Assembly (NCBI RefSeq): GCF_003852405.1 | Contig: NZ_QAJM01000014.1 | Location: 63,685-126,882 of the forward strand | Direction: 5' to 3' | Origin: Pseudomonas sp. KBW05 | GTDB lineage: Bacteria; Pseudomonadota; Gammaproteobacteria; Pseudomonadales; Pseudomonadaceae | DNA length: 63,198 nt | Shown here: piece by piece, positions 14,596-17,587 of the stretch | Numbering within the stretch: the first letter of the stretch is position 1 | Layout of the letters: every line of letters begins with the position of its first letter | Made by a program: the position numbers and the translations under genes | Notes under the pieces: generated by a model | What the model was told of the DNA's origin: nothing | What the model saw: the letters and a program-made list of their open reading frames with translations, nothing else | Database searches by the model: none

Positions 14596-14862
14596 TCAGT
14601 CTTCTTTAAATCCTGGCAAACCCTGAGCGGCGCGCCATGCCTTCACAGCTTGTGCGACGCCCTCTGGCAAGCTGTCCGCCCCAGGCTCAGGGTAAAAAAT
14701 CAGGTCGGTGCCGTCAGGATGACCAGCGAGTTGCCTGAACCTTTCGAGTAGCTCTCCCAGAGCCGCATCAGTTCCGCCCTTGTTGACCAGCAGTATTTGA
14801 TTTATGAATTCAACAAATTCGCTTTCTGTGTACTCGCACAAATGACGTTTGGATAGCTCCAC
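14596..14862 (-). CDS. Colicin E9/S-type pyocin DNase immunity protein, copy 5 (distal)
   Basis: 88 residues from the GTG at 14862 (MELSKRHLCEYTESEF), preceded by AGGT; a longer GTG start at 14871 is possible. It belongs to the four-helix Colicin_Pyocin immunity family: helix I motif EYTESEFVEFI, helix III GHPDGTDLIFYPEPGAD, C-terminal VKAWRAAQGLPGFKED. The residue equivalent to Im9 Tyr54 is Phe. Helix II (LVNKGGTDAALGELLERF), which sets toxin specificity in this family, is unlike the other copies. Its start region resembles copy 2. Probably a non-cognate immunity gene that protects against foreign DNase bacteriocins. Confidence 0.92.
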   Translation of the reverse strand: MELSKRHLCEYTESEFVEFINQILLVNKGGTDAALGELLERFRQLAGHPDGTDLIFYPEPGADSLPEGVAQAVKAWRAAQGLPGFKED

Positions 14863-14899
14863 TTCAAACACCTACGGATGCGCACAGCATCAATTCGGG

Positions 14900-15154
14900 T
14901 TAGGCATCGTTAAAACTCGCCAACCCTTTGGATGAGCAGTAGTCCTTGATCGTCCGAATCACCCCACCCGGAGAGTCATCAGCACCCGTCTCAGGATAAA
15001 AGAGCAAGTCGCTACCTGCTGGATGTGGCACTAGATTATTGAAGTGCTCTAACAACTCGCCTACCTCCTCATCACCTTCAGCATTCTCGATGGAGTGAAT
15101 CAGGGCTATGAACTCCTGCTCGGTGCAGTCGATAAGCGCAGTTTTGGGTTTCAT
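14900..15154 (-). CDS. Colicin E9/S-type pyocin DNase immunity protein, copy 4
   Basis: 84 residues from the second of two adjacent ATGs (MKPKTALIDCTEQEF), which has GGAG at better spacing. Family landmarks: helix I DCTEQEFIALIHSI, helix III PHPAGSDLLFYPETGADDSPGGV, with Tyr54-equivalent replaced by Phe. The C-terminus (IKDYCSSKGLASFNDA) departs from the WRAAQGLPGF seen in copies 3 and 5. This is the most divergent of the five. It lies 37 bases upstream of copy 5. Confidence 0.92.
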   Translation of the reverse strand: MKPKTALIDCTEQEFIALIHSIENAEGDEEVGELLEHFNNLVPHPAGSDLLFYPETGADDSPGGVIRTIKDYCSSKGLASFNDA

Positions 15155-15198
15155 CATTCACTCCCCCTGTGTACATCGGCCCACGGGACGACCGGAGC

Positions 15199-15465
15199 TC
15201 AGCCTCGCTTGAAGCCTGGCAATCCCTGAGCGGCACGCCACTCCTTTACATTTTGCGTAACTCCTTCAGGTGAATTATCAGCTCCAGGCTCTGGGTAATA
15301 GATCAAATCCGATCCCGAAGGGTGCTCACTGACTGTCTCAAAGTGCAGCAATAGCAAGTCAGCACGCTTATCGTTTTCCGCCTCACAGTCCTCCTTGGCA
15401 AGCGCTTCCAATAACTGGACGAACTCGACCTCGGTGTACTCAGAGAAACGGGCAGGGAGAGGCAT
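15199..15465 (-). CDS. Colicin E9/S-type pyocin DNase immunity protein, copy 3
   Basis: 88 residues from ATG at 15465 (MPLPARFSEYTEVEF). The open frame extends to 15594, but this overlaps copy 2 and lacks family similarity. Helix III is EHPSGSDLIYYPEPGADNSPEGV, closest of all copies to Im9, with Asp51, Tyr54 and Tyr55 equivalents kept. Helix II contains a longer, acidic insert (KEDCEAENDKRADLLLLHF). It begins four bases after the copy 2 stop codon, so both are surely one transcript. Confidence 0.92.
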   Translation of the reverse strand: MPLPARFSEYTEVEFVQLLEALAKEDCEAENDKRADLLLLHFETVSEHPSGSDLIYYPEPGADNSPEGVTQNVKEWRAAQGLPGFKRG

Positions 15466-15469
15466 GGCA

Positions 15470-15730
15470 TCACTCTCTCTTGAAACCCGAAAAACCATTG
15501 GCACTACGCCAACTTTGGACTTTTTTAATAATTCCTTCGGGAGAATCTTCATCTGCGCTCTCAGGGTAATAAATCCAGTCAGAAGCGACAGCACACCCCG
15601 TTACTTCGATGAAGTGCTCCAATAGTTCATCCTGATATTCCTCTGCTCCTGCCGCAGTCCATATTTCTTTAATGAATTCAAGAAATTCGCTTTCTGTGTA
15701 TTCGGACAGGCTACTCTTAGATGGTTCCAT
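15470..15730 (-). CDS. Colicin E9/S-type pyocin DNase immunity protein, copy 2
   Basis: 86 residues from ATG at 15730 (MEPSKSSLSEYTESEF), with AGGT upstream. Family fold is evident (EYTESEFLEFIKEIW, SDWIYYPESADEDSPEGI, SWRSANGFSGFKRE). The normally invariant HPxGSD at the start of helix III is CAVASD, so the helix III cap is altered although the Asp-x-x-Tyr-Tyr face is kept. The local base composition is low in GC (20 of 60 at 15661-15720). Confidence 0.92.
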   Translation of the reverse strand: MEPSKSSLSEYTESEFLEFIKEIWTAAGAEEYQDELLEHFIEVTGCAVASDWIYYPESADEDSPEGIIKKVQSWRSANGFSGFKRE

Positions 15731-15761
15731 TTCAAACACCTACACATAGTGCCAACTCGGC

Positions 15762-16022
15762 TCAAGCGTCTTTAAATCCCGGCAATCCCTGAGCGACGCG
15801 CCATATCACAACCGTTTGGACTATGCCTTCGGCAGAGTTATCGGCACCGTCCTCCGGGTAATAAATGAGATCCGTCCCAGCGGGGTGACCTGTAATCTCG
15901 CAAAACTGGTCGAGGAGATCCGCCATCACCTCCTCCGAAGCGCCGCTACTGTTAGCTAAAAATAGCGCCTGTAGGAAGCTGATGAATTGAGCATGGGTAT
16001 AGTCAGAAATGTTCTTTTTCAT
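15762..16022 (-). CDS. Colicin E9/S-type pyocin DNase immunity protein, copy 1, probably cognate
   Basis: 86 residues (MKKNISDYTHAQFISF). It begins eight bases after the toxin stop codon, the position of the cognate immunity gene in colicin and pyocin operons. Helix III is GHPAGTDLIYYPEDGADNSAEGI, with Asp51, Tyr54 and Tyr55 equivalents intact. The C-terminus is WRVAQGLPGFKDA. It is expected to bind and block the HNH DNase domain encoded just upstream until export or delivery. Confidence 0.95.
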   Translation of the reverse strand: MKKNISDYTHAQFISFLQALFLANSSGASEEVMADLLDQFCEITGHPAGTDLIYYPEDGADNSAEGIVQTVVIWRVAQGLPGFKDA

Positions 16023-16030
16023 TCATGTAT

Positions 16031-17587
16031 CTACCTATGAATAGCGATATGATTCTTTGGAGTATTAACGCGCATATTATCCACGTCGTATACCTTACCC
16101 CCCTCAGAAATCCATTCAACGTGATGCAATTCAAATACTTTCCTCCTCCCTACGGCATCTGCATAACGAGCCGTCGGAGCAAACCCATCTCGCATACGAT
16201 CGATGTTTTTCAGAGAGAACTGACTACTGAGTTCCGGATCATTAACTACCGCCATCCAAAATGCCTTCCTGAACTTATCAAAGCTGGTGAAACTTTTACC
16301 TCGAAGCCGATCAGCAACACGGGCTGGAACCGGTACACCCAACCCGACCCCAGCACCGGATAACCAGATTCCTGAAATATCTTCTCCCAGCCCTGTCACC
16401 GTCCCCGGATCAAGACGCACACTCATCACAACATACAACGGCCTCACCCCCGACCCCGCCGGGAACACAAGAATGAAATCCTTGTACTCAGGCGGATGTA
16501 TCGGGTTGACGATGAGGTTATCCGCCTGTTCGGTCGGCGGGTAAATCCAGATTTTCGGGGCTTGCGGCCTGCCCTCCAGGGGTGGAATGCCCGAAGTGGC
16601 GGACGGATCGACCGCTGGCGTCCAGATCAGGGTCACCCCGTCGCCGAAATCGGCCACTTGCTCAGCGCCACGCGCCTTGAATTGCACGACCGGAATCATT
16701 TCCCAGTCGGGGCGTTGCTGGGTGTTGTACCCATACCCTTTCAAAGTGCCGTCGGCTTGTTGCTCTATATGCAACCGAATTCGCGTGCGGCCTTGCTTCA
16801 ACGAATCGAGCTGCTCATCGGTGTACAAGCTGCTGTCACCCAGGCTGGACGGCCAAAGCAGTCCAACCAGGCCCGCCAGCGCACTGGCCCCAACAGTCGA
16901 CGCAACTGCCCCGGCACCGCAAAGACCACCACAGGCGACTCCCGCTGTAGCGGCCGCTGTTCCGCCCAAGGCCAACGTGCCAAGCGCCGCAGGCAAGGGG
17001 TTGCCCCTGATTTGTTTGAGAACGATATTTCCAGCGGGATTGGTTTCATCGCCACCCAGCAAGGCAAAAGTGCCGTACTCAGCGACCCCACAAGTGGGAA
17101 CTGGCCCGCCAAACTCGGTGTAATCAATGGCGCCGTCAGGCAATGTGCGAGGTTTGGTAAACGTACAGTGGTAGTGCTTTTCGGGAGCGGGCTGGCGCGA
17201 TACCTCTAGCACCTCAGCACGTCGTAGCGATGCGCTCTCTTGAACCCGAGGAGGGTGGGAGACACTCTCCAGCACGCGCTTGCCAGTGATTGCCCACCAT
17301 CGGTTGGCAGTGTCGCGACTTAGCGGGCTGATGGGTCTATCCAACACCAACAACCAATCACCGCGCTCAACCGCTTCCAGCATCTTACGTATGTGAGACT
17401 CGGGTATGTTGTGGGCATCGCGACCGTAGCAACCAAACTCCGCCTTAAGTTCGTTCAACCCGAACATACCCCCATATCCAGCCAGAGATCGTCGGACATG
17501 AAACTCCGCAAAAAATGGAGATTCAATTTTTTCGAAACCAATCCCTAACCGCTCACGATCTTGCCGACGAATAAGTCGCTCCCACAT
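16031..17587 (-). CDS. S-type pyocin/colicin E9-like HNH DNase toxin
   Basis: 518 residues. N-terminal region (1-195) of unknown type; Gly/Ala-rich hydrophobic segment (about 198-245, ending LVGLLWPSSLGD); Pyocin_S domain (about 250-390, RTRIRLHIEQQADGTLKGYG to DFILVFPAGSGVRPLYVVMSV); C-terminal colicin-type DNase (about 405-518, PVPARVADRLRGKSFTSFDKFRKAFW ...). HNH residues are His488-His489 in FELHH, Asn504, His513 and His517 in KNHIAIHR, so the nuclease looks active. No TonB box, long coiled coil or signal peptide is visible, so receptor and delivery route (bacteriocin release or contact-dependent effector) are open. Followed by five immunity genes. Confidence 0.93.
   Translation of the reverse strand: MWERLIRRQDRERLGIGFEKIESPFFAEFHVRRSLAGYGGMFGLNELKAEFGCYGRDAHNIPESHIRKMLEAVERGDWLLVLDRPISPLSRDTANRWWAITGKRVLESVSHPPRVQESASLRRAEVLEVSRQPAPEKHYHCTFTKPRTLPDGAIDYTEFGGPVPTCGVAEYGTFALLGGDETNPAGNIVLKQIRGNPLPAALGTLALGGTAAATAGVACGGLCGAGAVASTVGASALAGLVGLLWPSSLGDSSLYTDEQLDSLKQGRTRIRLHIEQQADGTLKGYGYNTQQRPDWEMIPVVQFKARGAEQVADFGDGVTLIWTPAVDPSATSGIPPLEGRPQAPKIWIYPPTEQADNLIVNPIHPPEYKDFILVFPAGSGVRPLYVVMSVRLDPGTVTGLGEDISGIWLSGAGVGLGVPVPARVADRLRGKSFTSFDKFRKAFWMAVVNDPELSSQFSLKNIDRMRDGFAPTARYADAVGRRKVFELHHVEWISEGGKVYDVDNMRVNTPKNHIAIHR

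Follow-up and report, generated by a model that had tools for sequence, protein, structure and literature searches.

The flhB-flhA interval of Pseudomonas sp. KBW05 carries an accessory cassette of about 3 kb, in which a gene encoding a DNase toxin is followed by five immunity (Im) genes. From the sequence data, we consider it likely that the toxin gene here is trailed by a homogeneous polyimmunity array, in which the first immunity protein (Im1) would provide self-protection and the remaining four (Im2-Im5) would act against foreign DNases, with contact-dependent delivery of the toxin and growth of the array by displacement. All coordinates refer to the window, i.e. the whole stretch of 63,198 nucleotides that was analyzed.

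Genetic organization of the cassette

The toxin gene (16031-17587, minus strand) is an intact frame encoding a protein of 518 aa (approximately 57 kDa at 110 Da per residue), which consists of three parts, all read from the minus strand: (i) an N-terminal domain (residues 1-117; 17237-17587) with the motif IESPFFA ... PFSPLS and without a Pfam or NCBIfam match, (ii) a Pyocin_S domain (residues 257-387; 16427-16819; Pfam PF06958, 4.9e-27) and (iii) an HNH DNase domain (residues ~394-518; 16034-16408; Col-Pyo_DNase, PF21431, 9.4e-52). Residues 1-256 as a whole gave no Pfam match. Searches with Pfam and NCBIfam revealed no PAAR, MIX, Hcp or VgrG part in the toxin, and its sole NCBIfam match, VPA1263 (237 bits), falls far below the curated cut-off of 900 bits. 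The HNH histidines H488, H489, H513 and H517 are all present in the sequence and correspond to those of colicin E9. The Im-binding patch of the DNase lies around residues 461-484. Within it, residues 461-471 (NIDRMRDGFAP) keep the conserved DNase exosite motif NxxxPhixxGxAP (PMC4548480), and helix III of the Im proteins keeps its D and YP. This toxin is the only PF21431 match in a genome-wide Pfam search, and its comparison with a genome-contig collection identified a single locus, in Pseudomonas sp. TNT3 (L229), matching residues 238-389.

The five Im genes follow on the same strand: im1 (15762-16022; 86 aa), im2 (15470-15739; 89 aa; GTG start, with an ATG also at codon 4), im3 (15199-15465; 88 aa), im4 (14900-15157; 85 aa) and im5 (14596-14871; 91 aa; GTG start). 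All of their products match PF01320 above the cut-off (4.5e-21 to 4.2e-29), and these are exactly the PF01320 matches of the genome. A PF21431 DNase with HNH histidines is thus followed directly, after 8 bases, by a PF01320 gene, as in a colicin/pyocin DNase-Im pair. An earlier note on this DNA, made from the sequence alone, had described a colicin-type HNH DNase gene heading five same-strand Im genes, and its coordinates, strand and frames are correct; its five intact frames with conserved fold residues were also confirmed, with the hotspot of helix III (D51, Y55, P56) among the invariant columns of the alignment. The gaps from the toxin gene through im5 are indeed short, measuring 8, 22, 4, 41 and 28 bases at the starts given above, so that their range is 4-41 rather than the proposed 4 to 44 bases. 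Tandem genes of one immunity family, in the same orientation, with small gaps and no toxin gene between them, form the arrangement of a homogeneous polyimmunity locus.

All five Im proteins match one PHROG (phrog_37357, unknown function). Within the array, the coding strand has two terminator-like sites (15513-15497 and 15020-15003), the region having 7 such sites versus 4.2 by chance. A search of 14300-18500 identified no sigma-70-like promoter (2.1 expected by chance), and one of 14200-18600 no Rfam match.

The flhB-flhA insertion site

The cassette spans positions 14594-17639, with a right edge that is uncertain up to 17707, and is without a DNA match in 40 relatives, whose flhB-flhA stretches were compared; one of these stretches (L054) covers only 734 bases. 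At its flhA-side edge there is a REP-like inverted pair (14486-14577), also present, without the cassette, in the interval of the nearest relative (L037). Upstream of the toxin gene, a 31-base block (17640-17670) shares 29 of its 31 bases with a block that, in another genome (G059, L075), precedes a PAAR-Pyocin_S operon occupying this slot. The location between flhB and flhA proposed in the earlier note holds, but the toxin gene is not directly adjacent to flhB, as two cold-shock-like genes, named by eye (17787-17999 and 18022-18231), intervene. As for the flhA sigma-54 promoter of the earlier note, a sigma-54-like motif is present upstream of flhA (14426-14441, minus strand), within a block matched in the 40 relatives.

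The flhB-flhA interval is a hypervariable slot, whose length ranges from 209 to 5282 bp in 55 genomes. In one relative it contains genes for a PAAR-Pyocin_S protein and a DUF6392 protein, and in another a DUF6392 gene with no toxin seen. In none of the flhB-flhA stretches of 60 other Pseudomonas (55 of them complete) was an Im gene found, which bears out the view that the cassette is accessory. As is usual for polyimmunity loci, the cassette varies between related genomes (here, of other species) and is the only one of its kind in the genome.

The position of the cassette raises the idea that the flagellar type III apparatus serves for export of the toxin. This route has been proposed for Carocin S1, whose export has been linked to flagellar genes (PMC2744703). 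Nevertheless, flhA or flhB is found beside none of the other Im clusters in 124 fetched stretches (among the matches listed), and the 11 genes with the N-terminal domain of the toxin whose surroundings were read all lie at other loci; flagellar export is therefore extremely improbable.

Specificity of the immunity proteins

The specificity of protein recognition has classically been studied on DNase-Im pairs. The five Im proteins share only 35-49% identity, and in a phylogenetic tree none of them is sister to another member of the array. Im2 groups with toxin-adjacent Im proteins of L111 and L011 (support 99/99), and Im3 lies inside an 8-row clade (100/98) with those of L204, L170, L168, L220, L214 and L193. 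Im4 groups with L110, L201 and L023 (92/87), its lineage being that of the toxin-adjacent proteins of L110 and L023 and its top match a second-rank rather than a first-rank Im (L201); Im5 lies inside a 7-row clade (100/99) with the toxin-adjacent Im of L226 and L222, and Im1 groups with L223 and L115 (87/89). In the common alignment, the best toxin-adjacent relatives of the array members are 61-77% identical to them, versus at most 49% within the array. Im2-Im5 are thus supported, on sequence comparison, as immunity proteins of other specificities, which group with toxin-adjacent Im of other Pseudomonas. Tandem duplication as the origin of the five genes was rejected on the basis of the 35-49% identities and the tree. 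For the same reasons it is very unlikely that the genes form a dosage or backup set of tandem duplicates all binding the local DNase: the close order of five same-family genes on one strand and an 82-nt stretch at the starts of im2 and im5 (80% identical) would agree with such a set, but each of the five lineages is closer to Im proteins of other genomes.

Im1 is the probable cognate of the local DNase, because the closest relatives of the two come from shared toxin-Im pairs: the DNase is closest to those of L223, L211 and L197, and Im1 to the Im proteins adjacent to the toxins of L223 and L197. The contact patch points the same way, with an identity to the local DNase of 0.36-0.43 in three Im1-type partners and 0.14-0.29 in twelve others. 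More generally, the Im-contact patches of the partner toxins are group-specific, and the identity of DNases correlates with that of the adjacent Im proteins (103 pairs, DNase matches of at least 110 residues only; Mantel r 0.58, p 0.001). Since the patch is just 36-43% identical even in the closest partners, and the chassis of L223, L211 and L197 are divergent (31-32%), we infer the cognacy of Im1 from these relationships. Im1 would bind and silence the local DNase, in agreement with the suggestion of one cognate and four other specificities in the earlier note, the pairing resting on the two comparisons described above.

The matching of later genes to foreign first-rank genes extends to other arrays: 40 of 62 later-rank Im proteins (from 72, after removal of 10 that were short or contained a stop) match the toxin-adjacent Im of another locus at 60% or more, in the sample of matches listed. 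The loci of the nearest toxin-adjacent Im encode short toxins, with a Pyocin_S chassis match in 15 of 16. In L111 (Im2 type), the frame of the toxin gene seems to be interrupted. The classic pyocins S1, S2 and AP41 and the E colicins, named in the earlier note for binding tests, are not supported as targets. The partner toxins are mostly short Pyocin_S-DNase proteins of other Pseudomonas, similar to the local toxin, and it is from four other Im-specificity types of DNases on these toxins that Im2-Im5 would shield the cell.

The reading of the array as an "immunity bank" is partly supported by the presence of five lineages at such low identity. The locus offers a natural set in which one DNase is accompanied by five consecutive Im proteins from sharply different lineages, each with a predicted partner type. 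Purified domains and simple gene deletions would therefore suffice to test directly whether the array is a defense bank or leftovers.

Origin of the array

Arrays of several Im genes also occur elsewhere in the genus: of the 125 clusters among the best-scoring matches listed, 20 contain at least three Im genes. In 7 of these 20 listed clusters (L112, L113, L147, L153, L167, L203, L218), partial DNase matches of 30-89 residues lie among the Im genes. Because some arrays keep such DNase remnants, they may have arisen as older effectors were displaced; sequential displacement has also been proposed for arrays of Vibrio cholerae (PMC5361080). An incoming toxin-Im pair would displace the older toxin and leave its Im gene behind, and complete arrays would then move between genomes. 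As expected under this origin, members of the KBW05 array are closer to foreign toxin-adjacent Im than to each other; its gaps of 4-41 bases hold no DNase fragment.

The array may represent leftovers of displaced effectors rather than a collection assembled for defense, although a displacement origin and a present defensive use are mutually compatible. A stricter form of this explanation, in which displaced toxin-Im pairs left the four extra genes behind as passive remnants that persist by chance and have no present use, is in our opinion unlikely. The DNase fragments in 7 of the 20 listed clusters would be expected in this case, but no such fragment fits into the gaps of the array studied here, all five frames are intact and keep the hotspot residues, and the dN/dS of im4 is 0.09-0.13 (the only value obtained, dS being saturated in most comparisons).

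Delivery of the toxin

We propose that delivery of the toxin to rivals is contact-dependent and most likely occurs through type VI secretion (T6SS), with the N-terminal domain as a possible loading part and Pyocin_S, for which a role in inner-membrane passage has been described (PMC9040868), carrying the nuclease across the inner membrane. Several observations make type VI delivery plausible. The genome (G000) contains three TssC (PF05943) matches, which indicate a T6SS. Among hand-picked genomes, TssC was found in 103 of 106 with a short Pyocin_S chassis versus 160 of 193 others (p 9e-5, kinship ignored). The PAAR-Pyocin_S protein in the same slot of a relative, behind the block sharing 29 of 31 bases, also counts for a T6SS link. 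No vgrG or hcp gene was seen in the flhB-flhA interval itself.

The combination of Pyocin_S, DNase and Im is equally the architecture of nuclease bacteriocins, so that the toxin could be a diffusible bacteriocin of the S type that is freed by lysis and enters target cells via a receptor, with the Im bank guarding against toxins of the same kind. Three short-chassis genomes (3 of 106: G063, G087, G106) lack a TssC match, longer DNase proteins of 716-816 aa are likewise followed by arrays of at least three Im genes (L113, L116, L135, L137, L147, L159, L167, L187), and extra immunity genes downstream of such pairs have been viewed as a possible reservoir trapping invading pyocins (PMC5358913). 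We nevertheless judge this alternative improbable. Residues 1-256 have no Pfam match (although receptor-binding and import domains need not all be in Pfam), the protein of ~57 kDa is smaller than the >60 kDa given as typical of S-type pyocins in a study in which short DNase proteins among the contaminants are predicted to be T6SS effectors (PMC5536347), its N-terminal domain is found as well at the start of an amidase-domain protein, and no LexA-like palindrome (at most one mismatch) occurs in 17588-17786. SOS control was likewise rejected at the level of the whole window, where LexA-like matches show no excess (25 versus 21.6 by chance).

The N-terminal domain, of approximately 110 residues, is also present on other toxin-like proteins and hints at an uncharacterized class of Pseudomonas effectors. 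Among 274 genomes of the class, it was found in two besides KBW05. No convincing relatives were identified in the PDB (two matches, E 0.53 and 0.65), and inspection by eye of 11 neighborhoods of N-terminal-domain genes revealed no obvious vgrG or hcp. LysM and glycine-zipper features were noted by eye in N-terminal-domain proteins; a Pfam scan assigned neither of two such proteins (L097, L100) to a family. We suggest, only tentatively, that these residues form an undescribed delivery domain of polymorphic contact-dependent effectors of Pseudomonas (DNase, peptidoglycan amidase and others that appear by eye lipase-like or membrane-active), and that the Im arrays behind Pyocin_S-DNase members constitute a genus-wide pool of interchangeable specificity cassettes, recording and guarding against DNase types met in the past.

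Comparison with known systems

Several other affiliations were considered and rejected: the toxin has no tblastn match in a phage collection, PADLOC identified no anti-phage system among the six cassette proteins, and although 764 plasmid records match the toxin, none does so over 80% of its length. On the best-matching plasmid, p3 of P. koreensis, a related pyocin gene precedes a single annotated immunity gene.

The toxin resembles VPA1263 of the VPA1263/Vti2 pair of Vibrio parahaemolyticus (PMC9602870) in its Pyocin_S domain and HNH DNase C-terminus, but VPA1263 is described as having MIX and LysM, whereas the KBW05 protein has a different N-terminal domain. The additional or orphan immunity genes of Pseudomonas pyocins (PMC5358913, PMC4905994) are comparable in lying near a bacteriocin pair as a possible reservoir, and one such orphan, an rRNase immunity gene of PAO1, reportedly neutralizes its pyocin. 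However, those described there number one or two per locus and belong to different toxin types, with a DNase Im alone in strain DK2, whereas the present array has four extra genes of one Im fold and separate lineages.

Like the T6SS immunity arrays of V. cholerae (Kirchberger et al. 2017, PMC5361080), the KBW05 array has one current effector and members resembling the immunity genes in effector-immunity pairs of other strains; the former are described at T6SS clusters, whereas the latter has no adjoining T6SS gene and no effector remnant inside, unlike some other Pseudomonas arrays. In the homogeneous polyimmunity loci described by Zhang et al. (2012, PMC3482391), as in the present array, paralogous immunity genes stand in tandem on one strand with short gaps and no toxin between them, with one locus of a family per genome and a proposed use against non-kin toxins. 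The families presented there as prominent are SUKH and Imm6, 11, 28, 33, 36 and 41, the colicin/pyocin Im family not being among those named. The present array differs from the loci described in that an intact toxin heads it and each Im can be assigned to a lineage that has toxin partners of its own. The cassette belongs to this already known kind, the homogeneous polyimmunity locus, at a hypervariable site.

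The cassette between flhB and flhA

Between flhB (18,469-19,605) and flhA (12,231-14,390), both named by eye, the minus strand carries, in addition to these genes, two cold-shock-like genes (also named by eye), a toxin gene (16,031-17,587) and five immunity (Im) genes, Im1 to Im5, numbered from the toxin outward. The toxin (518 aa) includes a Pyocin_S domain and ends in a colicin-type HNH DNase; the top sequence matches in the PDB were klebicin G and colicin E7. All five small proteins matched Colicin_Pyocin (PF01320) above the curated cut-off, and the array of five Im genes behind one DNase toxin, described in the earlier note, is real. 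A search of the whole genome (6.52 Mb, 69 contigs) revealed no further match to PF01320 or to the HNH DNase family PF21431 beyond the cassette.

An 82-nt stretch is common to the starts of Im5 (14,794-14,875) and Im2 (15,662-15,743) at 80% identity, yet the whole proteins are only 45% identical; this points to recombination among members of the array.

The flhB-flhA slot in related genomes

The comparison covered the flhB-flhA stretches of 60 other genomes, 40 from close relatives and 20 from more distant ones. Both flanks were present in 55 of the 60, separated by 209-5282 bp (4079 bp in the window), and profile search detected no Im gene in any of the 60 stretches, five of which are incomplete. 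Conversely, neither flhA nor flhB was found beside the 124 other Im clusters in any stretch examined. The cassette is thus accessory at this site, as had been proposed. The segment 14,594-17,639 had no DNA match in the close stretches, while every one of the 40 matches the block upstream of flhA, including a sigma-54-like motif, and many also match the cold-shock genes; the insert therefore comprises the toxin and Im genes (its right edge is uncertain). REP-like matches are common in the 40 close stretches, many of them elsewhere in the stretch; the pair of the nearest relative (L037) occupies the same place as that at the flhA-side edge of the cassette.

A 31-base block located 53-83 bases upstream of the toxin gene (17,640-17,670) is identical at 29/31 positions to one in the flhB-flhA slot of a different species (L075, 2666-2696), where it lies upstream of the PAAR-Pyocin_S operon. 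With up to five differences allowed, it was absent from all other compared loci of other genomes. This block is a candidate shared promoter or cassette edge.

The slot of L075 contains a PAAR-Pyocin_S protein gene followed by a DUF6392 gene (379-2330), and that of L053 a lone DUF6392 gene (6147-6608), with no accompanying toxin seen; this pairing and the lone gene suggest that DUF6392 may be an immunity family. In other relatives the interval is occupied by cold-shock genes and by DUF3077-, FKBP-, RAYT- or Rhs-like genes (named in part by eye). The cassette occupies a hypervariable site within the flagellar operon.

Specificity lineages of the Im proteins

The Im proteins were labelled by their rank behind the nearest upstream DNase match. 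That rank 1 is the cognate is an assumption, supported by the correlation between DNase and rank-1 Im identities (Mantel r 0.58, p 0.001; 103 pairs with a DNase of at least 110 residues). The window DNase is closest to those of L223, L211 and L197 (65-66%), and Im1 to its rank-1 counterparts in L223 and L197. The closest relatives of the remaining members are the rank-1 proteins of L111 (73%) and L011 (67%) for Im2; of L220, L204, L170, L214 and L168 (79-83%) for Im3; L201 rank 2 (66%), L110 rank 1 (64%) and L023 rank 1 (63%) for Im4; and, for Im5, the rank-1 proteins of L226 (64%), L019 (64%; behind a partial DNase match only) and L222 (61%). The same groups were recovered when 67 Im proteins were placed in a maximum-likelihood tree, built on few columns and with many forks unresolved (closest fork of Im1, 87/89). 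With contact sites and numbering taken from colicin E9, the DNase patches are alike within Im groups and different between them, and that of the window most resembles the Im1 group (0.36-0.43 vs. 0.14-0.29).

Of 72 later-rank Im proteins, 62 were analysed (10 being short or interrupted); 40 of these match, at 60% identity or more, a rank-1 Im that follows a full DNase at another locus, and 34 do so at 65%. The rank of the Im3 type differs by array: third in the window, fourth in L115 (genome G097) and first in L220. L115 displays the logic of the window array more strongly: the four later members of its array share 74-85% identity with the rank-1 Im of four other loci. There is clear sequence evidence that the array members belong to different specificity lineages, as earlier suggested, and the array is likely to function as a defence bank.

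Im clusters in Pseudomonas

At least one PF01320 match occurs in 134 of 299 Pseudomonas genomes. A sample of 112 stretches from among the matches listed, together with further loci, was recounted with our own profile. Among the matches listed there were 125 distinct Im clusters, containing one (72), two (33), three (11), four (4), five (3), seven (1) or nine (1) Im genes. Of the 20 with at least three, seven contain partial DNase matches, 12 (the window counted) one full DNase without a partial one, and L221 two near-full DNase matches in a single frame.

L112 (7635-11,900) is a near-orphan array: two DNase pieces, of 36 and 116 residues, are interspersed with its nine Im genes, and no full-length toxin frame was detected at this locus. 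At L215 (2473-5022, minus strand), one toxin frame with two DNase-profile matches is followed by two Im genes, a layout shared by L123, L125, L134, L143, L144, L150, L160, L163, L165, L166, L169 and L181. Such frames encode about 850 aa where complete; in the first DNase copy of L215, the HNH motif is without its HH.

Toxin chassis and delivery

The chassis of the toxin (residues 118-392, which include Pyocin_S) was matched at 15 of 16 partner loci, the exception being L193. Partner chassis fall at 62-79% (seven) and 30-42% (eight), so the DNase types pass between two or more chassis subgroups. The Im1-type partners L223, L211 and L197 have divergent chassis, yet carry the DNases closest to that of the window. 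The chassis matches of L111 are split over two frames, and its toxin may therefore be interrupted.

The whole toxin was matched at 1e-20 or better in 178/299 genomes, a count that includes ordinary pyocins. The T6SS marker TssC is present in 103 of 106 short-chassis genomes, chosen by hand from the matches (absent by profile from the other three), versus 160 of 193 others (p 9e-5, a statistic that ignores kinship). The unnamed N-terminal domain (residues 1-117) occurs in 23/299 genomes, 22 of which have TssC; this alone says little, since TssC is found in 263/299 anyway. The domain also heads an Amidase_2 protein (L099) and is present on a lipase-like protein (L106) and on LysM/glycine-zipper-like proteins (assigned by eye, Pfam giving no support). 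Together, these observations make contact-dependent delivery the favoured prediction, but no T6SS gene was seen adjoining the window toxin, and three of the short-chassis genomes gave no TssC match.

The same genome encodes a second protein with the N-terminal domain (217 aa; L105, contig C2, 8671-9324) and a second Pyocin_S protein (404 aa; L108, contig C5, 8432-9646), which carries a Cytotoxic (PF09000) domain and has a small gene behind it.

Comparison with described systems

Among the papers listed by searches of an incompletely covered literature for a bacteriocin at flhA/flhB and for similar immunity arrays, none appeared from its title and opening abstract lines to report the present case. 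Pyocin_S has been described as an inner-membrane translocation domain of bacteriocins and T6SS effectors (PMC9040868), and a T6SS effector with a Pyocin_S-HNH arrangement is already known (PMC9602870). Polyimmunity loci (PMC3482391), immunity arrays of V. cholerae (PMC5361080) and orphan and additional pyocin immunity genes (PMC4905994, PMC5358913) are likewise on record. The window array is a real and accessory five-member Im array of this already known kind.
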